Assembly: GCA_037388465.1 (NCBI GenBank)
Contig: JARRKE010000009.1
Coordinates: forward strand, 1-52,376
Length of the DNA: 52,376 nucleotides
From: Gammaproteobacteria bacterium
GTDB taxonomy: Bacteria > Pseudomonadota > Gammaproteobacteria > SpSt-1174
Reading direction: 5' to 3'
Shown: in pieces, positions 17,143-44,002 of the stretch
Layout of the letters: each line of letters opens with the position of its first letter
Numbering within the stretch: position 1 is the first letter of the stretch
Program-made: the position numbers and the translations under genes
The notes under the pieces: generated by a model
What the model saw: the letters and a program-made list of their open reading frames with translations, nothing else
Database searches by the model: none
What the model was told of the DNA's origin: nothing

Positions 17143-17475
17143 ATGCTGTACGCGGAACGCGACGAGCAGGGCAATATCACCTCCCTCTCCCACACCCCCC
17201 AATCCGAACAGGCAGAGGCCGTTTCATTGCAGGAACCGGCGGTTACCGAGTTCCTTACCGATAAGGATAACAGGCAGGCCCTTCACGACCTGCTCAAGGC
17301 CACCGACGCCGACCTTGCACGCGTCACCGAAGACCTGATCGATGTGCTCGTCGAGAAAGGCGTCATCATGATGACCGACCTGCCGGAGGCCGCCAGGCAA
17401 AAGCTGATCACCCGGCGCCAGGCGCGTCTCTCGCTGTCCGAACTCATCGTCGACCCGGACGACCTTATTCTTTAG
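17143..17475 (+). CDS. Conserved 110-aa protein of the 'tryptophan synthase subunit beta-like' group
   Basis: It starts MLYAERDEQGNITSL, a pattern I recognise from short proteins often misnamed as tryptophan synthase beta-like; it has none of the enzyme. ATG 17143 has AAGGA 8 nt upstream and is preferred over a GTG 11 codons earlier. The C-terminal half (VTEDLIDVLVEKGVIMMTDLPEAARQ) is helical and acidic. It is encoded alone on the plus strand between divergent lapB and convergent lapD, overlapping the lapD end by 11 nt. Function is unknown; a role with LapD/LapG is only suggested by position. Confidence 0.7.
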   Translation: MLYAERDEQGNITSLSHTPQSEQAEAVSLQEPAVTEFLTDKDNRQALHDLLKATDADLARVTEDLIDVLVEKGVIMMTDLPEAARQKLITRRQARLSLSELIVDPDDLIL

Positions 17476-19408
17476 GCGCGGGCTGGTTCAGCGGCTTCGG
17501 CCTGCCCATCAAATAGCCCTGCAGGGCATCGATGTGCAGTTGCTCCAGCACCTCGCGCTGCGTATCGGTTTCCACCGCCTCCGCGATCGCCAGGATATCC
17601 AGGCTGTGGGCAACCGAGATCAACGTACCCACGAAGAACTGGCGATCCGAGTCGCGCACCAGTTCCCTTACGAAAGCGGCATCGATCTTGACGTAATCCG
17701 GTCGTAGGGAACGCAGATAACCGAAATCGGCCAACCCCCTGCCGAAGTGGTCGAAGCCGTAGCCGAACCCCGCCCCGCGCAGACGCGACACCAGCGCGCG
17801 CAAAGGCGTCAGATGGGCGATCGCAAGCTGCTCGGAAAACTCGAACACGGGCCGCGTCGAGGCGGGCGGCAAGCGGGCGAGTTCAGAGAACAGCCATTCG
17901 ACAAAGGCCGAATCCTGCACCGAGCCGGCGGACAGGTTGATGGCCAGCGCCGGGCCGCCTGCTGCCTGCGCCGCCTGCTGCAACGCCAGCTCGACGATCA
18001 GGCGATCGAATTCGCGGGCCAGCCCCAGCTCCTCGGCCAGCGGCATGAACACCCCCGCCGGCCAGAGGCTGTCGGTCTGGTCGCGATACCGGACCAGGAC
18101 CTCCTGGTGCAGGATGCCGCCCTCTTTGGCAATGACCGGCTGGGCATGCAGGACCAGCTCCCGGTTCTGCAGCACGCGGCGCAGCCGTTCGCCCCACTCC
18201 CGGTGGCCGACCATGCCCTCCAGGGCTTCGCCGGCCCGCTGCCAGGTGTTCGGACCGATCGTCTCGGACTCCCGCAGGGCGGCATCGGCGGCGGCGAGCA
18301 CGGCATCTGCCGTCTGTCCCGGGGCATAGGCGGCCACCCCGATGTTGATACCCTTTCCCGAGGGCACCAGCCCCATCGCCTCGGTACATATATCCGCGGC
18401 CAGTTGATCCAGTTCCTCCGGGCTCGCTCCGGTCATCAGCAGCCCGAAATCGCCGCCACCCAGCCGAGCCAGGGTCGCATAATCGGCCTCACCGGTGCGT
18501 TCGCTCAAAATGCCCGCCAACTCCCTGAGCAGGGCGTCGCCCGCAGGCAGCCCCTGGGTGTCGTTAATGCCCTTGAGGTCCTGCAGCTGGATCAGCAACA
18601 GACCGCCCCGGCCGTGTTCTGCATCCGGTGCCAGACGGATATGCAGTTCGTCCATGAACAACCGCCGGTTGGCCAGGCCGGTAAGCGGGTCCTCGTACGA
18701 CAGGGTCTGGAGGCGGCGCGCCGTGCGCGCATCCTCTTCGAACAGACTGCGTATTTTGCCCGTCAGGCGATTCATCGCCTGCACCACCCGGCGCAATTCG
18801 CGGGTGCGCGGCAGCTTGTGCTGCGTCTCGTAATGCCGCTGAGCCAGCTGCTCTGCCTGGCGCTCGACAGCCCTCAACGGCCGCAGCAGGACGCGCAGGG
18901 CCACCCCGCCCATCACCAGCAGGACCAGGGCCACGCTGCCGAACCAGACCCCCGTTTCCACCGTGGTCCGCCACAACTCGCCGTAGGCATAACCGGGATG
19001 ACTCCATACGTGCACCGTACCCACCTGATGCCAGCCGGACATCACCAACGCCGAGGCGTCGGGTACGTTGAGATGCACCAGATGCACGAACCAGCCCGGC
19101 ACGCCATGAACCACCACCGGCGCACTGCGCGACACCAGCGGATGGCCCTCGTTGTCCTCGATCCGGATGGCCTGGTAGTAGCCCCGGTCGAACACCGCGT
19201 CCACCATGGACGTCATCAGGGCAAGGTCGCGATGCTGCATGTGGGTGGACAGAGACAGGCCGAGCGAGGTCGCGGTGTCCTGGGCATGCGACTCGAGCTG
19301 CGCCGTCAAAAACGTGCGGGTACTCTGAAAGTTCAGCCACAGCGTCCCCACGAACATCAGCAGGAACAGCGTCACGATCACAATCACCAGCTGCCGGTAT
19401 AGCGTCAT
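17465..19408 (-). CDS. lapD: LapD-like c-di-GMP receptor with degenerate GGDEF and EAL domains
   Basis: 647 aa inner-membrane protein. It has a first membrane helix (5-27), a periplasmic sensor (28-150) with a Gly-Trp at 125-126 like the LapG-contacting Trp of LapD, a second helix (153-175), HAMP (176-228), GGDEF (235-400) and EAL (405-640). The GGDEF signature reads GGGDF and the EAL motif reads EVL, so it should bind rather than make or cut c-di-GMP. LapD holds LapG when c-di-GMP is high and releases it when low. It follows lapG by 43 nt, with GAGGA before the ATG. Confidence 0.92.
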   Translation of the reverse strand: MTLYRQLVIVIVTLFLLMFVGTLWLNFQSTRTFLTAQLESHAQDTATSLGLSLSTHMQHRDLALMTSMVDAVFDRGYYQAIRIEDNEGHPLVSRSAPVVVHGVPGWFVHLVHLNVPDASALVMSGWHQVGTVHVWSHPGYAYGELWRTTVETGVWFGSVALVLLVMGGVALRVLLRPLRAVERQAEQLAQRHYETQHKLPRTRELRRVVQAMNRLTGKIRSLFEEDARTARRLQTLSYEDPLTGLANRRLFMDELHIRLAPDAEHGRGGLLLIQLQDLKGINDTQGLPAGDALLRELAGILSERTGEADYATLARLGGGDFGLLMTGASPEELDQLAADICTEAMGLVPSGKGINIGVAAYAPGQTADAVLAAADAALRESETIGPNTWQRAGEALEGMVGHREWGERLRRVLQNRELVLHAQPVIAKEGGILHQEVLVRYRDQTDSLWPAGVFMPLAEELGLAREFDRLIVELALQQAAQAAGGPALAINLSAGSVQDSAFVEWLFSELARLPPASTRPVFEFSEQLAIAHLTPLRALVSRLRGAGFGYGFDHFGRGLADFGYLRSLRPDYVKIDAAFVRELVRDSDRQFFVGTLISVAHSLDILAIAEAVETDTQREVLEQLHIDALQGYLMGRPKPLNQPAPKE

Positions 19409-19451: not shown

Positions 19452-20159
19452 TTAATGCGCCAGCTCCAGCCCTTCGGCACGCATCCGGCGTTTCAGGCCC
19501 TGCCACAGACTCAGACGGTTGGCGCTGCCGACGAACCGGCCCAGACCGCGCTGTTTGGCCAGCCACAACCCCTCGCCGTTGAAGCTGTAGACGGGCAACA
19601 GGTCCGGCCTGAGCGAAGCGCGCTTGATCTGCCCGTCCAGGTTGTCCAGCACCAGCGGCTCGGCGCCCGGACGCTTGTAATAGGTGACGACCATGTGGGC
19701 CTGGTCCAGCGTAAGTGACTTGACGTAGGTCAGGCGCAGGCGCTCGGCGGGCACCCCCAGCTCGCGCAGGGTGAAGTACTTGGCCAGTGCGAAATCCTCG
19801 CAGTCCCCCCCGTCGGTCTCGAGGAATTCGAGCGGCGTCGCCCAGTAATCGGTCTGCCCCCAATGGCGCTGATCGGGCAGAAACGGCAACTGGTTGAAGA
19901 AGTTGTTGACGATGACCAGCTTGCGCGATTCCGGCTGCTGCCGGTCGGTGCGCAATATTTCCCCCCAGCGCGCCACCCGGCGTTTGGCATATTCCCCGTA
20001 CTGCTTCTCGACCCGTGACAGAAGCTGGGGCGTGACCGCAAAGGCCTCCGCTGCTCCCGCCGCGGGCCCCAGCGACAGGACCAGCAACAGCCCCATTGCA
20101 CTCAGCCAACGGTTGTCGCGGCGCCCCGGCTTCCGCGTATCTGTTATTTGACGGTCCAT
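19452..20159 (-). CDS. lapG: LapG-like periplasmic cysteine protease
   Basis: 235 aa of the bacterial transglutaminase-like cysteine proteinase family. A signal peptide spans about 17-37. The catalytic triad is visible as Cys120 (GGDCEDF), His155 (QAHMVV) and Asp172 (LVLDNLD). The acidic residues beside the Cys are those used for calcium binding in the family. It should cut the adhesin at its N-terminal Ala-Ala-Gly, releasing it from the surface. It is upstream of lapD in the same operon and divergent from the sigma-28-controlled small gene. GGAG lies 4 nt before the ATG. Confidence 0.92.
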   Translation of the reverse strand: MDRQITDTRKPGRRDNRWLSAMGLLLVLSLGPAAGAAEAFAVTPQLLSRVEKQYGEYAKRRVARWGEILRTDRQQPESRKLVIVNNFFNQLPFLPDQRHWGQTDYWATPLEFLETDGGDCEDFALAKYFTLRELGVPAERLRLTYVKSLTLDQAHMVVTYYKRPGAEPLVLDNLDGQIKRASLRPDLLPVYSFNGEGLWLAKQRGLGRFVGSANRLSLWQGLKRRMRAEGLELAH

Positions 20160-20282: not shown

Positions 20283-20696
20283 ATGGCAATGAAAAACCAT
20301 GAACCGCCGCCGCTGCACCACAAACACCGCGGCCTGCTTTGGCTGGCCGTGTTAGCCGTGCTGGTGGAACAGCTGTGTTTCACGGCGCCATACGCCGAGG
20401 ATATCAGCGCCAGCGGGTCGCACGCGACGGCCTCAGCGCATCTGAATTTCAAGATCGTCATTCCCGAACAGCTGCGCCTCCAGGTCGAACAACAAAGCGA
20501 CAATCATTCCATCACGGGCATTAACGTACGCATGGACGTGCGCGACCGCTATGCCGTCCACAAAACACTCCCCGGCACCGCACTAAGCCAGTCGAATACC
20601 ATGCCCCCCTTTTCCAACTCCCCTTACCCCAACCTGATGGAATGCCGCAGCGGCACGACGCGAAAACCTGCCTACTGCCTCCTCGCCCTGCCCTGA
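20283..20696 (+). CDS. Small exported protein, tandem family member 1
   Basis: 137 aa. A hydrophobic signal or anchor spans about 17-38 (HRGLLWLAVLAVLVEQL), then a strand-like motif AHLNFKIVIPEQLRLQV (52-68). The C terminus has two Cys ten residues apart (Cys121 and Cys132) ending in CLLALP. The same plan recurs in the next two genes. No ribosome site precedes the ATG; with the sigma-28 promoter ending at 20273, the transcript would be nearly leaderless (a second ATG two codons on is possible). I do not recognise the family. Flagellar-class control suggests a periplasmic or surface role linked to motility. Confidence 0.7.
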   Translation: MAMKNHEPPPLHHKHRGLLWLAVLAVLVEQLCFTAPYAEDISASGSHATASAHLNFKIVIPEQLRLQVEQQSDNHSITGINVRMDVRDRYAVHKTLPGTALSQSNTMPPFSNSPYPNLMECRSGTTRKPAYCLLALP

Positions 20697-20740
20697 AGCC
20701 CGCCACTCTCCACCGAACGCCCAATACCCTCACGAGGGGC

Positions 20741-20767
20741 TAAAGTTCGTCGTCATGCCGCCGATAC
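20741..20767 (+). promoter_or_regulatory. Sigma-28 (FliA) promoter of the second small exported protein
   Basis: TAAAGTTC-N11-GCCGATAC, 14 of 16 to consensus with exact spacing. Eight nt after its end is position 20775, the A of the ATG, so the mRNA is predicted to be leaderless. Confidence 0.85.
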
Positions 20768-20774
20768 AGCGTGC

Positions 20775-21194
20775 ATGAACCCCGGTATTCCATCCCAACG
20801 CTGGCCGCAAACCCCGCTCCACACCGCCCGCCGGCTGCTTTGGGGCCTGATTACCGTCCTGGTCCTGGCTTTGACAACCGCAACCCCCGTCCCCGCCCAG
20901 GAAGATCTGGCCCAGGGACGCGGCGCCAGTGCATCCGCCCGTCTCCGCTTCAAGATCGTCATCCCCCAGCAGGTCGCCATCCGGGTAGTCAACGCCTCGA
21001 CCGGTGACGAGTCCGGGCGGCCCCGGGTCAGCGCCCAGGCCAATGACGTTTTCGCGATCCGGGTCCGACTCAGCGACAACCGCATCGAACACGGGTCGGA
21101 CATCGCGCGGCCGGCCACCCCCCTGCCGGATCTACTGGCGTGCCGGCGGTCGCGCCCCCAACAAGCGGCGGACTGCCTGCTCGCCCTGCCCTGA
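20775..21194 (+). CDS. Small exported protein, tandem family member 2
   Basis: 139 aa. A signal peptide spans about 18-41 (LLWGLITVLVLALTTATPVPA), then ARLRFKIVIPQQVAIRV, a central SAQANDVFAIRVRLSDNR, and the C-terminal LPDLLAC (Cys123), ten residues, then CLLALP (Cys134). Closest in its body to member 3, more diverged at the N terminus. No ribosome site is visible; the promoter places the transcript start on the ATG itself. The two Cys with fixed spacing suggest a disulphide after export. Function unknown. Confidence 0.72.
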   Translation: MNPGIPSQRWPQTPLHTARRLLWGLITVLVLALTTATPVPAQEDLAQGRGASASARLRFKIVIPQQVAIRVVNASTGDESGRPRVSAQANDVFAIRVRLSDNRIEHGSDIARPATPLPDLLACRRSRPQQAADCLLALP

Positions 21195-21321
21195 AGAGTC
21201 CCGTGCAACCGTCCGGTTCAGGCCCGGTCGGCGGCAAAAAATTGACGCTTTCCAGGCAAATACAGGCCAAGCGTCGGATTATTGGCGTCAAAAATCCGTG
21301 TAAAGGTACAAAGCGAATTCA

Positions 21322-21334
21322 TAACCTATTGATT
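21322..21334 (+). promoter_or_regulatory. IHF site upstream of the third small gene
   Basis: On the minus strand it reads AATCAA-TAGG-TTA, a full match to the IHF consensus WATCAA-N4-TTR. It ends 30 nt before the sigma-54-like element, a usual place for DNA bending toward an enhancer-bound activator. Confidence 0.6.
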
Positions 21335-21363
21335 TAAATAATATTAAAAAACAAGGCGCCCAC

Positions 21364-21379
21364 TGGCACGGAACATGCG
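21364..21379 (+). promoter_or_regulatory. Sigma-54 promoter of the third small gene
   Basis: TGGCACGGAACATGCG: GG and GC in the required 10-nt spacing, TGGCACG perfect, and one mismatch in TTGC. Transcription should begin near 21390, leaving a short leader that contains the GGGAG ribosome site. Confidence 0.7.
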
Positions 21380-21411
21380 GGGAAATTAACAGAGATCCAG
21401 GGAGCGCGATC

Positions 21412-21849
21412 ATGAACGCAAATACGACGCACCTGAGTGGGTGGAACCGCCATAACGGACCGGCCCCACTGCACCACAAGCACCGCGGCCTGCTTTGGCT
21501 GACAGTCATCGCGCTACTGCTCGAACAACTGAGTTTTACGGCACCATATGCGCAGAGTATCAGTCTCAGCGGCACACATGCCGCGGCCGCCGCGCATCTG
21601 AATTTCAAGGTCGTCGTCCCCCAGCAGATCACCATCCGGGTGGTCAACACGGCGGCCGCCAATGAACCCGCACGGTCTCACGTCAGCGCCCAGGCCAATG
21701 ACGTGTTCGCGGTGCAGGCCCGGTTCGACAACGGCCGTAGCGAACGGCGGATACCCCCTTTCCACGCCGCAACTCCGCTGCCCGACCTGCTGGCATGCGG
21801 ACAAACCACGGGCCAGACATCAGCCAATTGCCTGCTCGCCCTGCCCTGA
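21412..21849 (+). CDS. Small exported protein, tandem family member 3
   Basis: 145 aa. Its N terminus nearly repeats member 1 (PLHHKHRGLLWLTVIALLLEQL) and its body resembles member 2 (AHLNFKVVVPQQITIRVVN and SAQANDVFAVQARFDNGR). It ends LPDLLAC (Cys129), ten residues, CLLALP (Cys140). Unlike the other two it has a ribosome site (GGGAG, 7 nt spacing) and an IHF plus sigma-54 promoter. The mosaic of features suggests repeated local duplication. Predicted to be exported or anchored by its N-terminal helix; function unknown. Confidence 0.72.
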   Translation: MNANTTHLSGWNRHNGPAPLHHKHRGLLWLTVIALLLEQLSFTAPYAQSISLSGTHAAAAAHLNFKVVVPQQITIRVVNTAAANEPARSHVSAQANDVFAVQARFDNGRSERRIPPFHAATPLPDLLACGQTTGQTSANCLLALP

Positions 21850-21943
21850 GTACCTCACCCTCCCGCTGCGCCGCAGCGCCAGGGGAAATCGCACAAAATA
21901 ATCCCCGGCGTGCCGGTACGGCCCCGAAAACGCCAAAGCCTCA

Positions 21944-21956
21944 TAACCCATTGATT
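21944..21956 (+). promoter_or_regulatory. IHF site upstream of the diguanylate cyclase
   Basis: On the minus strand AATCAA-TGGG-TTA, a full consensus match. The surrounding 20 bp (from 21942) are 19/20 identical to the block at 21320, and the distance to the sigma-54 element is the same (30 nt). Confidence 0.6.
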
Positions 21957-21985
21957 TAAATGTAATTGCCTGGCAAAACAATGCT

Positions 21986-22001
21986 GGGCATGAAGTTTGC
22001 T
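21986..22001 (+). promoter_or_regulatory. Sigma-54 promoter of the diguanylate cyclase
   Basis: GGGCATGAAGTTTGCT has GG-N10-GC spacing and a perfect TTGCT -12 box. Two bases of the -24 box differ from TGGCACG. It lies 35 nt before the ATG at 22036. Confidence 0.65.
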
Positions 22002-22035
22002 TTAGTGACAGGCAGACACTTTATGGAATGCGATC

Positions 22036-22929
22036 ATGAATGAACATCCGACACGCGCGGGCGTGTGGAACCAGCGGACCGGCGGCGCCCTTCCCACCCT
22101 GCGCCCCAGGCTTACACCGCATGAGGTCATGCTGCAGCTGCATACGACCCTGGATGTGGAAGAAATCATCGCGCGTTTCGTCGAGCTGATTCAGACCGAG
22201 TTCCCCGTCAGCGGCCATGTGTACATGAACGAGACGCCGGCAATCAGTTGCCGCGGCGGACACACCAACCGGCACTCGCTTGCCTATACCCTGACCATGG
22301 AAGGCCATGCCCTCGGCGAACTCCGGCTGTTTCATTCACGGAGCATGGCCGAAGCCGACGTCCGGCAACTCGAGGAGAGGATATCCCTGCTGTTCTACCC
22401 GCTGCGCAACGCCATACAGTATCGACTGGCCGTGGAATCAGCCTTCAAGGATCCGCTGACCGGTCTGCGCAACCGTTTCGACATGGCGGTGGAGATCGAG
22501 CGGGAGATCAACCTGTGCCATCGGCATGAACAGCACATGTGCCTGCTCATTATCGACATCGATCATTTCAAGCGGCTCAACGATACCCACGGGCATCTCA
22601 ACGGCGACCGCGTCATCATATGCGTCGCCCACGCACTGCGCGAGACGCTGCGCGAGACGGATCTGATCTTCCGCTATGGCGGGGAGGAATTCACCATCGT
22701 GCTGAGCAACACGGCGGCGGCGGACGCACTGCAGATCGCCGAACGCATCCGTACGACGATCGCGGGACTGAACTGCAAAATCGAGGGGAACGTCGACGTC
22801 TCCCCCAGGGTCAGCATCGGCCTCACCCAGCTCCAGCCCGACGACGGAGCCGGCAGCCTGTTCCAACGTGCCGATACCGCCTTATATAATGCCAAGTCGG
22901 CCGGCAGGAACTGCTGCCGACTGGGTTGA
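22036..22929 (+). CDS. Diguanylate cyclase with N-terminal GAF-like domain
   Basis: 297 aa, soluble. Residues about 30-130 look like a divergent GAF sensor and residues 135-295 are GGDEF. The active site is GGEEF at 215-219 with DIDHFKRLNDTHGH upstream, so it should make c-di-GMP. An RxxD inhibitory site (RETD at 206-209) sits five residues before the GG, indicating product inhibition. It has its own IHF/sigma-54 promoter resembling that of the third small gene. Its output may be read by PilZ and LapD nearby. Confidence 0.9.
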   Translation: MNEHPTRAGVWNQRTGGALPTLRPRLTPHEVMLQLHTTLDVEEIIARFVELIQTEFPVSGHVYMNETPAISCRGGHTNRHSLAYTLTMEGHALGELRLFHSRSMAEADVRQLEERISLLFYPLRNAIQYRLAVESAFKDPLTGLRNRFDMAVEIEREINLCHRHEQHMCLLIIDIDHFKRLNDTHGHLNGDRVIICVAHALRETLRETDLIFRYGGEEFTIVLSNTAAADALQIAERIRTTIAGLNCKIEGNVDVSPRVSIGLTQLQPDDGAGSLFQRADTALYNAKSAGRNCCRLG

Positions 22930-25579: not shown

Positions 25580-26374
25580 TCATCCCTGCACCTGGACCTG
25601 CCCGGGTGCGATCACCACGCCTTCCACGACCCGCCTGGAGCGGGTATTACGCACCTTGACCCGGCCGTTGCGCGGCGCATCCCCCAGGGCCACGCCCTGC
25701 GTCGACACGCTGACCCCGGCCAGCCCGGAAACAATGCTGACCGTCTGGCCGCGATGCACCAAGAGCGGCCGACGCAGCATGGTGGGTGTCAGGACCTGGT
25801 CGGCCAGAACCTGGCGGGTCAGCACCTGTCCGGCGACCTGCGCCGCATCCGTATAGTAACCATACGGCAGGCGGGCGACATTTCTCGACACCAGCCGGAC
25901 GTCCGAGGTCTGCAGGGTCGCCGCACGCGGCAGGGTCCGCCCGACCACCAGGATACGAATGCGCGCATCCACCGTCACGGGGACATACACGGTCCACGGC
26001 TTGGGGGCCGTACAGCGCACCCCGACCACGGTGTTGCCCACCGCCGGCATGCTGTTGGCGCGAAAGGCCTCGAGTTCCGCCCCGCAACGGGCCAGGCTCA
26101 AGCGGGTGTCCAGCGGCGACGCCTCGACATGCAACCTGGCCTCCGGCAGGGCCTGTCGCGCCTGATCCAGGGCGTATTGCCGGGCCGTCGCGCCGATCCT
26201 GGCGTGCGATTCGAGTTCGCCGGCCTGGACCCCGCCAGCACAGACGGCCAGCATCATGACGGCACAGCGGATGCACTTGCGCCATACCCCATGCCACGGG
26301 GCGTCATGATCACGGCGCGGCAAGCGCCTGACCGCCGCCCCGAACGCCGGGGATTTGACGTCTCCGCCCCTCAT
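25580..26374 (-). CDS. flgA: Flagellar P-ring assembly chaperone FlgA
   Basis: 264 aa from ATG 26374. A signal peptide with a long N region ends near residue 51 (AVCAGGVQA). The SAF-like domain spans about 130-195 and the C-terminal FlgA domain 195-264 (LLVHRGQTVSIVSGLAGVSV). FlgA escorts FlgI in the periplasm during P-ring assembly. It has its own sigma-54-like promoter, separate from the sigma-28 promoter of flgMN, fitting earlier expression. The start is uncertain because the N region is unusually long. Confidence 0.88.
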   Translation of the reverse strand: MRGGDVKSPAFGAAVRRLPRRDHDAPWHGVWRKCIRCAVMMLAVCAGGVQAGELESHARIGATARQYALDQARQALPEARLHVEASPLDTRLSLARCGAELEAFRANSMPAVGNTVVGVRCTAPKPWTVYVPVTVDARIRILVVGRTLPRAATLQTSDVRLVSRNVARLPYGYYTDAAQVAGQVLTRQVLADQVLTPTMLRRPLLVHRGQTVSIVSGLAGVSVSTQGVALGDAPRNGRVKVRNTRSRRVVEGVVIAPGQVQVQG

Positions 26375-26417
26375 CACGCTCACAGGCCTGTCTCGATGCT
26401 GCTCATGCCCGTCATGC

Positions 26418-26433
26418 TGCAAATTCCAGGCCA
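26418..26433 (-). promoter_or_regulatory. Sigma-54 promoter of flgA
   Basis: On the minus strand TGGCCTGGAATTTGCA: correct GG-N10-GC spacing, perfect TTGCA -12 box, two mismatches in the -24 box. It lies 44 nt before the ATG. Confidence 0.6.
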
Positions 26434-26484
26434 GCCATTGGACCCCGCCGCGCCCGGAGCATCCCGAATCCCGTGCATTAGGCC

Positions 26485-26511
26485 TAAATATTTCCCCGCT
26501 CAGGCCGACAA
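26485..26511 (+). promoter_or_regulatory. Sigma-28 (FliA) promoter of cheV
   Basis: TAAATATT-N11-GCCGACAA, 13 of 16 to consensus with exact spacing. It leaves a leader of about 105 nt before cheV. Confidence 0.6.
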
Positions 26512-26624
26512 CCTCAGTGCGACCCGACCTGCGGCCCGGCCCATCACGCGATGGCCGGCGCGGCGGGGACAAGGCCCCGCTGGGGCGCCATTCGACAACC
26601 ACTCACGAGCTGACTCGATCGCCC

Positions 26625-27539
26625 ATGAGAAATACGCTTGCCTCCGTCGATCAAAGAACCCGCCTGGCCGGCCAAAACCGGCTGGAGCTGCTGCTGTTCC
26701 GGCTCGACCAGCGCCACGTGTTCGGCATCAACGTGTTCAAGATCCGCGAGGTCATCAACGAACCGGCGCTGAAGAGCGTGCCTCAGGCCCACCCCTACAT
26801 CCTCGGCATCGCGAATATTCGCGGCCAGGCCACCCCGACGATCGACCTGGCCCAGCCACTCAAGATCCGTTCCTCCGCCGAACCCGGCAAGGGCTTCCTG
26901 CTGGTTACCGAATTCAACCGCTCCGTGCAGGCCTTTCGCGTGGCGTCGGTCGACCGCATCATCAACATCAGCTGGGAGTCGGTAATGCCGCCGCCCAAGA
27001 CTTCCAGCATCAGCAATTACATGACGGCAGTTACGGATCACGAGGACCAGCTGATTCAGCTGCTGGATCTGGAACGAATCCTCGCGGATATCCGCAATCA
27101 GGACACCTCCGTCTCCGAGTCCATGATCTCCCGATGCACCGGCCTGGACGGACAGCCGCGTCGACTGCTGGTGGTGGACGATTCCGCCGTGGCCCGGCAT
27201 CAGATGCTCAAGACCCTGGAACAGATCGGCATGGAGGTCGAACTCGCCAAGGACGGGCAGGAGGCCCTGGAACTGCTGCAGGGGATCGCCGAGGCCGATG
27301 ACGACAGCCGCATGATCGATGCCGTGATCTCGGACATCGAGATGCCGCGCATGGACGGCTACACCCTGTGCAGCCGTATCCGTCACGATACCCGCCTGTC
27401 CGGGCTGCCCGTGATGCTGCACACCTCGCTGAGCGGCTCCTTCAACGAGGAACTGGTCAGGCAGGTCGGCGCCAATGCATTCCTGCCCAAATACCACCCC
27501 GACGAACTGGTCGATGCGGTATGGAAAATATTCCAATGA
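26625..27539 (+). CDS. cheV: Chemotaxis coupling and receiver protein CheV
   Basis: 304 aa. A CheW-like coupling domain spans about 15-160 (VFKIREVINEPALKSVPQAHPYILG) and a receiver domain about 178-300, with phosphate-acceptor Asp237 (SDIEMPRMDG) and the acidic pair DD at 185-186. It couples receptors to CheA and adapts by phosphorylation. The start MRNTLASVDQRT matches family practice. It is divergent from flgA and probably under sigma-28. Confidence 0.93.
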   Translation: MRNTLASVDQRTRLAGQNRLELLLFRLDQRHVFGINVFKIREVINEPALKSVPQAHPYILGIANIRGQATPTIDLAQPLKIRSSAEPGKGFLLVTEFNRSVQAFRVASVDRIINISWESVMPPPKTSSISNYMTAVTDHEDQLIQLLDLERILADIRNQDTSVSESMISRCTGLDGQPRRLLVVDDSAVARHQMLKTLEQIGMEVELAKDGQEALELLQGIAEADDDSRMIDAVISDIEMPRMDGYTLCSRIRHDTRLSGLPVMLHTSLSGSFNEELVRQVGANAFLPKYHPDELVDAVWKIFQ

Positions 27540-40639: not shown

Positions 40640-41861
40640 TCTGTTGCATCCTCATCTTCTTGGTTCGTGGTTGCGGGCTGCGCGTACTGCTGACGGCCTG
40701 GTGCTCGACCAGCGAAACCGCCCTCTCGATCAGGCCATGTGCCTGTGCGGGCTCCAGATCCTCCGCCACGCGCTGGCCGGTGCCCAGATAGGCCAGCGGC
40801 AGGCGTGCACCGATCAGACACGACAGCGCCCCGCCCAGGGATTCCGCCTCGTCCAGCTTGCTCAGGATCACGCCATACAGCGGCGCCTGGCTGAAGCTCT
40901 GCAGGGCCCGGCGCAACACATCGCGTTCGGCGTTGGCGGCCAGCACCAGGCAGATATCCAGTCGGGGAATCGCCGCCAGCCCCGCCAGGTCGGACAGCAG
41001 CCGGCCGTCGCGGGGGGACATGCCGGGGGTGTCGATCAGGATCAGGCGCTTGGTTCCCAGCCCCGGCAGCAGCCGGCGCAGTTCGTTGACGTCGCCGGCG
41101 TGATAGGTCGGCACGCCCAGCAGCTGACCGTAGGTGGCCAGCTGGGACTGCGCGCCGATGCGATAGTCGTCCATCGAAACCAGCGCGATCTGCTTGCGTC
41201 CGTGGTGGATGATGTGGCGTGCCGCGAGCTTGGCCAGCGTGGTGGTCTTGCCCACCCCGGTGGGACCCACCAGGGCGTAGATGCCGCCCTGCTTGGCGAT
41301 GCGGTCGTCGGCGAAACGCATGCGCCGTGCCAGGCCATGCAATGCGGTGCGCCAGGCCAGCCTCGGGTTGTCCAGCACCGGAATGCCGGCGGCGATCTGG
41401 CGCGCGACGCCGACGTCGATGCCCATGCGCTTGAACTTGCGCACCAGCTCCGCCTGCTGGGGATGCTGGCGATTGAACTCGCCCCAGGCGATGCGCGCGA
41501 GATGTCCTTCCAGCAGGCCGCGCATGGACTGCAGTTCCTGTTGCAGTTCGCTCAGCGACTGCCCTTCGGGATTTTGCTGCTCCGCTATCGCGGCGGCGAC
41601 CACGGCTGCCGCCGGCTGCGGTGCCGCTGCGGGTGGCTGCGGTTGTTCGCTCGCCCGGGGCGCGGCCGGCGGTGCCACCACCGGCTCCACCTTGCGCGCG
41701 ATCTCGCTGACCAGTTCGGCATCGAAGTCGGCCGCCGCCACCAGCTCGATGCCTTCCGGCAAACGCTGGCTGGACAGAATCACGGCATCCTGCCCCATGG
41801 ACTCCCGCACCAGGCGCAACGCCTGCCGCATGTCCTGTGCCACAAACCGTTTGATCTTCAT
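40623..41861 (-). CDS. flhF: Flagellar GTPase FlhF
   Basis: 412 aa SRP-type GTPase. An N-terminal B domain and Pro/Ala-rich linker (about 55-100), an N domain, and a G domain with GPTGVGKTTTLAKLA, VSMDDYRIGA, IDTPGMSPRD and LSKLDEAESLG. It sets the pole where the flagellum is built. Confidence 0.94.
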   Translation of the reverse strand: MKIKRFVAQDMRQALRLVRESMGQDAVILSSQRLPEGIELVAAADFDAELVSEIARKVEPVVAPPAAPRASEQPQPPAAAPQPAAAVVAAAIAEQQNPEGQSLSELQQELQSMRGLLEGHLARIAWGEFNRQHPQQAELVRKFKRMGIDVGVARQIAAGIPVLDNPRLAWRTALHGLARRMRFADDRIAKQGGIYALVGPTGVGKTTTLAKLAARHIIHHGRKQIALVSMDDYRIGAQSQLATYGQLLGVPTYHAGDVNELRRLLPGLGTKRLILIDTPGMSPRDGRLLSDLAGLAAIPRLDICLVLAANAERDVLRRALQSFSQAPLYGVILSKLDEAESLGGALSCLIGARLPLAYLGTGQRVAEDLEPAQAHGLIERAVSLVEHQAVSSTRSPQPRTKKMRMQQNAYAE

Positions 41862-41884: not shown

Positions 41885-44002
41885 TCAGCCCGCGGCCCGG
41901 ACCGGCGATTCCAAACCGTTCTGCGCGCCGATGGTAGCCACGACCCGCAGCTGCCTGTTGTCCGGAATCTCGGTGTAGGCCAGTACGTGCAGCCCGCGGA
42001 CCACCGGTCGCAGCCAGCGGCCCAGGGGCGCGCGCAATTCCGGAGACACCACCAGTACCGCGGGCTCTCCGGTCAATTCCTGGTGCTGGGCTGACTCGCT
42101 CACGGCGCGTTGCACGCGCTCGGCAAGATTCGGTTCCACACCCAGTCCGCCACTGCCCTGGAGGGACTTGTGCAATAACTGTTCCAGAGACGGATCCAGG
42201 GTCATCAACTGCAGTTCGGCACTGGTACCAAAGACTTTTTGCACAATGGTGCGGGCCAGCGCGCCGCGCACACCGGCGGTGAGAACGTCGGGGTCTTGAC
42301 TCTTGGTGGCCTGGTCCGCCAGAGATTCGGCGATGGTGCGCATGTCGCGCACGGGGATGCCTTCGGCCAGCAGGTTCTGCATCACCTTGAGCACCACGCC
42401 CAGCGGCAAAGGCTTGGGCGTGAGGTTCTCCACCAGCTTGGGTGCGCTGCGCGAGAGGATGTCGAGCAGTTGCTGGACCTCCTCGTGGCCGAGCAGTTCG
42501 TGGGCGTGGGCCTGGAGTATCTGGCTGAGGTGGGTGGCGATCACCGTGGCGGGATCGACCACGGTGTATCCCATGCCCTGGGCCTGATCGCGCATGCCCG
42601 GTTCCACCCACACGGCCTCCAGGTCGAAGCTGGGATCGCGGGTGGCGATGCCGTCGAGCGGGCCGCTGACCTGTCCCGGGTTGATGGCGAGCTCGCGCTC
42701 GGGATAGATCTCCGCCTCGCCGACGGGGACGCCCATCAGGCTGATGCGATAAGCATTGGGAGTGAGATCGAGGTTGTCGCGGATATGCACCGCGTGCACC
42801 AGGAACCCGAGCTCCTGCGACAGCTTGCGACGCACGCCCTTGATACGGGTCAGCAGGGGCGCGCCCTGCGCCTGATCCACCAGCGGGATCAGGCGGTAAC
42901 CGACCTCCAGGCCGACGATGTCCACGGGCGGCACGTCGTCCCAGGAAAGCTCGCGCGGACGCGTGTCGTCCGGCATCAGATCGGTCTCCGCCTCCACCAA
43001 CTCGCCCTCCTGGGGACGATTGGAAACCCAGTAGCCCCAGCCGGCGAACAGGGCCGCCAGGCCGAGAAACACCAGGTTGGGCATGCCGGGCACCAGCCCC
43101 AGGGAGGACAGCACGCCGGCCGTTATATAAAGCGCGCGCGGCGAGGCGAACAGCTGGCTCATGACCTGCTGTCCCATGTCCTGCTCCGAGGACACGCGGG
43201 TCACGATGATCGCGGTGGCGGTGGACAGCAGCAGCGAGGGAATCTGTGCGACCAGACCGTCGCCGATGGTGAGCAGCACGTAGTTCTGCGCGGCGGCCGA
43301 CAGACTCATGCCGTGCTGCAGCATGCCCACGCTCAGGCCGCCGATGATGTTCACGAACAGGATGATGATGCCGGCCACCGCATCGCCGCGCACGAACTTG
43401 CTGGCGCCGTCCATGGAGCCGTAGAAGTCCGCCTCGTTGCGTACGTCCTCACGCCGCGCCCGCGCCTCCTCCTGAGAGATGATGCCGGCGTTGAGATCGG
43501 CGTCGATGGCCATCTGCTTGCCGGGCATGGCGTCCAGAGTGAAGCGCGCCGACACCTCGGAGACACGCCCGGCGCCCTTGGTGACCACCGCGAAATTGAT
43601 GACCACCAGAATCGCGAACACCACCAGACCGACGGCGTAGTTGCCGCCGACCACGAAATCGCCGAAGGCCTCGATGACCCGACCGGCGGCGCCCGTACCG
43701 GTGTGACCATTCAGCAGCACCACGCGGGTGGAGGCGACGTTAAGCGCCAGACGCAGCAGGGTCGCCACCAGCAGCACGGTGGGGAATACGGCGAAGTCGA
43801 GCGGGCGGCGCGTATAAACCGTGACCAGCACCACCATCATCGACAGGGCGATGTTGAAGGTGAACAGCACGTCCAGCGCGAACGGCGGCAACGGCAGGGT
43901 GACCATGCCGAGCAGCGCGACCAGCAGCAGCGGCACGCCGAGGCCGAAGCGCGAGATGCCGCGCAGGTTCTGCATCACGCCGATATCTCCGGATTGCGCC
44001 AT
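41885..44002 (-). CDS. flhA: Flagellar export gate protein FlhA
   Basis: 705 aa. Eight membrane helices (about 15-330), the conserved FHIPEP-type region (AGRVSEVSARFTLDAMPGKQ, SKFVRGDAVAG), and a large cytoplasmic substrate-docking domain (345-700). A 1-nt overlap (TGATG) with flhB shows translational coupling. Confidence 0.96.
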   Translation of the reverse strand: MAQSGDIGVMQNLRGISRFGLGVPLLLVALLGMVTLPLPPFALDVLFTFNIALSMMVVLVTVYTRRPLDFAVFPTVLLVATLLRLALNVASTRVVLLNGHTGTGAAGRVIEAFGDFVVGGNYAVGLVVFAILVVINFAVVTKGAGRVSEVSARFTLDAMPGKQMAIDADLNAGIISQEEARARREDVRNEADFYGSMDGASKFVRGDAVAGIIILFVNIIGGLSVGMLQHGMSLSAAAQNYVLLTIGDGLVAQIPSLLLSTATAIIVTRVSSEQDMGQQVMSQLFASPRALYITAGVLSSLGLVPGMPNLVFLGLAALFAGWGYWVSNRPQEGELVEAETDLMPDDTRPRELSWDDVPPVDIVGLEVGYRLIPLVDQAQGAPLLTRIKGVRRKLSQELGFLVHAVHIRDNLDLTPNAYRISLMGVPVGEAEIYPERELAINPGQVSGPLDGIATRDPSFDLEAVWVEPGMRDQAQGMGYTVVDPATVIATHLSQILQAHAHELLGHEEVQQLLDILSRSAPKLVENLTPKPLPLGVVLKVMQNLLAEGIPVRDMRTIAESLADQATKSQDPDVLTAGVRGALARTIVQKVFGTSAELQLMTLDPSLEQLLHKSLQGSGGLGVEPNLAERVQRAVSESAQHQELTGEPAVLVVSPELRAPLGRWLRPVVRGLHVLAYTEIPDNRQLRVVATIGAQNGLESPVRAAG

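Follow-up and report, generated by a model that had tools for sequence, protein, structure and literature searches.

Three tandem genes for predicted exported proteins that share an N-terminal strand with pilin-like subunits, two of them behind flagellin-type promoters

The three genes and their products

The window analysed here, a 52,376-nt stretch of a gammaproteobacterial genome, carries three adjacent genes, all with intact reading frames (table 1). LapD-like and LapG-like genes lie before them on the opposite strand, and genes for a GGDEF protein, a PilZ/YcgR-like protein and CheR follow on the forward strand, so that the position between lapGD and flagellar regulators given in an earlier note on this DNA is correct. 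The alignment of the three products has 34 invariant columns, which include the strand A-x-L-x-F-K-[IV]-V-[IV]-P-[EQ]-Q, both cysteines and the terminal CLLALP. Exactly ten residues separate the cysteines in all three proteins (C-x10-C-LLALP end). The sizes of 137, 139 and 145 aa, the export helix, the A-x-L-x-F-K strand and the C-terminal motif described earlier are all borne out by this alignment.

All three proteins are probably exported by Sec, as predicted from a hydrophobic helix followed by an A-x-A-type cleavage site. The mature protein would comprise about 95–100 residues and start with a beta strand of the donor-strand type, A-x-A-x-L-x-F-K-I-V-I-P, to be followed by a second strand, a body that is short and variable, and a loop at the C terminus. 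The conserved cysteine pair and the predicted periplasmic location make it likely that this C-x10-C-LLALP loop is closed by a disulphide. AlphaFold models reached pLDDT values of 44 and 39, too low to be informative, from an input alignment of three sequences, which is too shallow for structure prediction.

Table 1. Features of the window, followed by related loci elsewhere (contig given with the position).
Feature	Position	Strand	Details
LapD-like gene	17465-19408	-	
LapG-like gene	19452-20159	-	
Gene 1 sigma-28 (FliA)-type promoter, TAAAGTCT-N11-GCCGCTAA	20247-20273	+	14/16, exact spacing
Gene 1, putative exported mini-pilin-like protein, 137 aa	20283-20696	+	ORF, alignment
Gene 1 segment: signal-peptide end and donor-strand-like N-terminal strand, common to pilin-like subunits	20379-20498	+	
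Gene 2 sigma-28 (FliA)-type promoter, TAAAGTTC-N11-GCCGATAC	20741-20767	+	14/16, exact spacing
Gene 2, putative exported mini-pilin-like protein, 139 aa	20775-21194	+	ORF, alignment
IHF-type site, AATCAATAGGTTA, within 21-nt repeat common to the GGDEF gene promoter region	21326-21339	-	
Gene 3 sigma-54-type -24/-12 element, TGGCACGGAACATGCG	21364-21379	+	10/12
Gene 3, putative exported mini-pilin-like protein, 145 aa	21412-21849	+	ORF, alignment
GGDEF gene sigma-54-type element, GGGCATGAAGTTTGCT, probable donor of the gene 3 promoter	21986-22001	+	10/12
Diguanylate cyclase (GGDEF) gene, 5' region duplicated before gene 3	22036-22929	+	PF00990, E 2e-45
Un-named surface-assembly locus of the source genome	G000:C14 (L012:9011-14511)		
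Short exported proteins (predicted) of G165	C45:7787-8122 and C45:6080-6376		
Short exported protein (predicted) of G013	C10:256-552		

Sigma-28-type promoters of genes 1 and 2

The FliA regulon box TAAAGTTT-N11-GCCGATAA is correctly placed before genes 1 and 2 and absent before gene 3. Boxes of the quality seen here did not occur in eight Markov-generated control windows, and the strict sigma-28 pattern is found only three times in the 2.79-Mb genome: before flagellin, gene 1 and gene 2. The flagellin of a sister genus is preceded by the same consensus. The flagellar-type promoters ascribed earlier to the whole family are therefore upheld for genes 1 and 2 (14/16 with an 11-nt spacer), and not for gene 3, which has a sigma-54-type arrangement. 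FliA would thus switch on genes 1 and 2 together with flagellin. The boxes end 9 nt (gene 1) and 7 nt (gene 2) before the ATG; since the usual start of transcription lies some 7 nt past the -10 element, both mRNAs are probably leaderless or nearly so.

The window contains a third sigma-28 box (13/16, 26485-26511), upstream of a CheV-type gene (frame 26355-27539), called by eye from its CheW and receiver domains.

Mosaic structure of gene 3

In 21-column blocks of the alignment, proteins 1 and 3 are identical at 16 and 15 positions in the N-terminal blocks and at 4–7 in the body, and proteins 2 and 3 at 11 and 13 in the body. The DNA follows the same division, with a repeat of 183 nt (75%) joining the N-terminal halves of genes 1 and 3 and one of 156 nt (74%) joining the bodies of genes 2 and 3, which confirms the mosaic sharing claimed earlier. 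The dN/dS ratio is about 0.24 for the N-terminal part (1 versus 3) and about 0.44 for the body (2 versus 3); such values indicate purifying selection and thereby support the coding status of the genes. It is quite improbable that the genes are tandem copies of a pilin fragment that now serve no function and are decaying: the variable bodies, the mosaic history and the lack of full-length homologues (see below) would suit decay, but the selection, the three intact frames and the conservation of the cysteine pair, the C terminus and the promoters all speak against it.

Gene 3 also resembles the neighbouring diguanylate cyclase gene. Their upstream regions share the 21-nt repeat that contains the IHF-type site (95%), a 48-nt repeat spans the start codon in both (73%), and the first 14 or so codons of gene 3 resemble those of the GGDEF gene. 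In both promoters 25 nt separate the IHF site from the sigma-54-type element. The duplicated sigma-54/IHF promoter and start region covers 21319-21448 at gene 3 and 21941-22072 at the cyclase gene. This looks like local promoter capture, by which gene 3 would have acquired its sigma-54/IHF promoter from the adjacent cyclase gene. As a whole, gene 3 looks like a fusion of the promoter and start of the cyclase gene, an N-terminal part of the gene 1 type and a body of the gene 2 type. The window contains about a dozen single sigma-54 matches of 10/12 quality, so that this assignment rests on the conserved arrangement and not on the score, and it is weaker than the sigma-28 assignment of genes 1 and 2. 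For the GGDEF gene, TGGCAAAACAATGC was also considered as the -24/-12 element, but it is wrongly spaced, and aligning the region with that of gene 3 singles out GGGCATGAAGTTTGCT.

Near-copies of the gene 3 element, TGGCACAGGACATGCG and TGGCACGGCGCATGCG, are present on the reverse strand at 41842 and 41332 of the window, just downstream of a probable flhA (41885-44002, reverse strand, recognized by eye).

Relatives of the family

Profile searches of Pfam, NCBIfam, PHROGs and PDB gave no match to the three proteins, in line with the earlier remark that they belong to no known family; chaperone–usher and fimbrial models gave none either, and literature searches yielded no description of such proteins. 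No full-length relative was found among 369 genomes of the class and 398 of the phylum. Two scans of 84,980 species genomes, made with short peptide patterns that strongly diverged relatives would escape, gave none, and neither did searches of viral contigs and of plasmids. The order of the source genome contains only two other genomes, neither with the three genes. As full-length proteins, the family thus appears so far confined to this lineage. Weak matches in the phylum were rejected as relatives, since each was short, had a broken frame or belonged to a large protein.

The profile of the three proteins does reach further through their N-terminal module. A lack of conservation outside this genome, which the earlier note named as grounds for refuting its proposal, thus applies to the full-length proteins and not to that module. 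In the source genome the profile matches the three proteins themselves and one 218-aa pilin-like protein on contig C14 (E 2e-5). The matches in the class (E 3e-6 and 1e-4) are to the N-termini of pilin-like proteins of about 200–220 aa, besides one frame-broken match, and the 398 phylum genomes added one more pilin-like N-terminus. In the reverse direction, a pilin profile built without the window sequences matches gene 1 (E 1.1e-4), gene 2 (E 8.1e-6) and gene 3 (E 3.6e-5). Comparison of the N-terminal module with the pilin-like proteins by hhalign gave probabilities of 95–96% (E 2e-8 to 2e-9), and in 300 shuffles that kept the alternation of residues no score exceeded 20, whereas the real score was 48.

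The common segment comprises the last part of the signal peptide together with some 35 residues, with the pattern A-x-A-x-L-x-F-x-[IV]-V-[IV]-P-x-x-[LI]-x-[FI]-R-V. The three proteins possess the export signal and the strand A-x-A-x-L-x-F-x-[IV]-x-[IV]-P of the pilin-like subunits, and the likeness to those encoded at G000:C14, G154:C218, G125:C270 and G165:C45 lies in the signal end and the strand A-x-A-x-L-x-F-x-I-V-I-P-x-x-L-x-F-R-V. The C-terminal residue of these subunits is usually proline, as in the three proteins. Past the first 40 residues there is no statistical similarity: the bodies do not resemble pilin bodies significantly (p 0.11; HMMER no better than shuffles), and the three proteins lack the beta body of about 130 residues with its 'SNAGQVTIT' and 'WTYSY...GTYTGxVTYTAxxP' blocks. 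A pilin-like body suggested by eye from a SNAG/SAQAND block and the final proline failed the shuffle tests. Unlike the pilin-like subunits, the three proteins have a cysteine pair and FliA- or sigma-54-type promoters.

The un-named surface-assembly locus

The C14 pilin-like protein belongs to a conserved locus encoding a barrel-like outer-membrane protein whose C-terminal domain is of the SdrD_B type, a two-Ig protein, a 160-aa protein and two subunits, of which the major one carries the N-terminal strand and the second, tip-like one lacks precisely this strand. Neither the subunits nor the two-Ig protein have a name in Pfam or NCBIfam. About a dozen of the 369 class genomes contain relatives of this locus. 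The three genes lie outside it, in the flagellar/lap region, and region L012 around the C14 locus has no sigma-28 box of 13/16 or better.

Chaperone–usher pilins carry an N-terminal donor strand that is absent from tip subunits. The related loci resemble them in this respect, and the lack of the strand in the second subunit is what would be expected of the tip of a donor-strand fibre. The difference is that Pfam and PDB gave no match and that no recognized usher or PapD family is encoded in the related loci. The two-Ig protein is nearest, weakly, to EfmWxLIP1 of Enterococcus (E 0.0016; in Pfam the similarity stays below threshold), and strand insertion between WxL and WxLIP partners has been predicted (PMC10599100). 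It is this two-Ig protein, and not the three window proteins, that resembles the WxL/WxLIP clusters of Gram-positive bacteria. With no chaperone–usher family match and a two-Ig protein only weakly nearest to WxLIP, donor-strand exchange at this locus is a matter of inference, and the locus should not be called chaperone–usher without further proof.

Other short proteins with the strand

Searching with the N-terminal module alone revealed the short, putatively exported proteins of G165 and G013 (table 1). They resemble the window proteins in their mature length of about 100 aa, their terminal proline and the N-terminal module (hhalign 87%, E 4e-6), but differ in a body that is not alignable, a YTVAxP end, the lack of a cysteine pair and their occurrence in genomes without flagellin. 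Homology of the bodies failed shuffle tests here too. Given that the bodies are significantly similar neither to pilin bodies nor to these short proteins, they may have a different fold. The gene for one of the G165 proteins lies within a pilin-like locus, flanked by those for the major subunit and the tip-like one. A further 100-aa protein, in G040 (L109:4529-4831; G040:C515), keeps the pilin-like strand and the last hairpin and lacks the middle; it is solitary, its 7.7-kb contig containing no pilin-like locus. Several lineages have thus gained or kept short strand-bearing proteins, in one case inside the locus.

Flagellin was not found in G165 and G013, an absence that is provisional as these, like G001 and others, are draft assemblies; the flagellar tie would accordingly be specific to the source lineage. 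This bears on the possibility that the three proteins are flagellum-associated components of the periplasm or surface, accessory to the filament, ring or motor, and resemble pilins by common descent only. Strict FliA boxes in common only with flagellin, and a place in the flagellar/chemotaxis region, would agree with such a role. We nevertheless consider it unlikely, both because of these short relatives in genomes lacking flagellin and because flagellins and cheR occur in G002, a sister-genus genome, without the three genes.

The lapGD neighbourhood

Gene 1 is divergent from lapG across a gap of 123 nt, an arrangement that could suit proteins that pair with or regulate the LapG protease or the LapD receptor, for example a secreted inhibitor or substrate of LapG. 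Such a role is very improbable: the flanks (up to about 1.5 kb) of 29 other lapG loci contain no relative of the three genes, which answers in the negative the question of whether homologues accompany Lap genes, and the promoters of genes 1 and 2 point to flagella. G002, which lacks the three genes, lacks lapG as well. The link to lapGD is one of adjacency and is not otherwise supported. Of the earlier proposal of a periplasmic or surface component tied to motility or attachment, the location is favoured by the pilin-like strand and motility by the sigma-28 boxes, and a tie to Lap finds no support.

A possible role at a surface fibre

That the proteins carry the strand of pilin-like subunits at the N terminus favours a role at the surface or in the periplasm. 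We tentatively regard the three proteins, with somewhat less than even confidence, as a young, lineage-specific family of flagellum-coupled, very short pilin-like proteins ('mini-pilins'), which would most likely act as a small accessory subunit engaging a surface fibre. Their strand would be the one with which a C14 pilin-like subunit completes its neighbour. As a cap, terminator or anchor, a mini-pilin would engage the groove of a fibre subunit or of its chaperone, and it would do so while the cell builds flagella. Both the strand exchange and the site of action are inferred here from sequence.

The same features could be read as those of assembly decoys, which in swimming cells would either cap the elongating pilin-like fibre or tie up its chaperone, and thereby keep attachment structures blocked for as long as flagellar expression lasts. 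A donor-strand module without a detectable pilin body able to receive the next subunit would serve this purpose; genes 1 and 2 have sigma-28 boxes in common with flagellin, the C14 locus has none of comparable quality, and c-di-GMP genes adjoin. The short G165 protein inside a pilin-like locus suits a structural part better, and we judge decoys to be decidedly unlikely. That the flagellar sigma factor directly drives such exported donor-strand decoys, so that the swimming cell would block its own attachment organelle by strand exchange at the protein level and not by gene repression, is improbable.

Gene 3 would exemplify a new gene that has gained the promoter of a second-messenger enzyme through local duplication. 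The three proteins would also offer a way into a surface-assembly locus that is nameless in Pfam and NCBIfam. If the mini-pilin reading is true, tiny exported strand-bearing proteins with the rare promoter of flagellin would constitute a direct molecular bridge between swimming and sticking.
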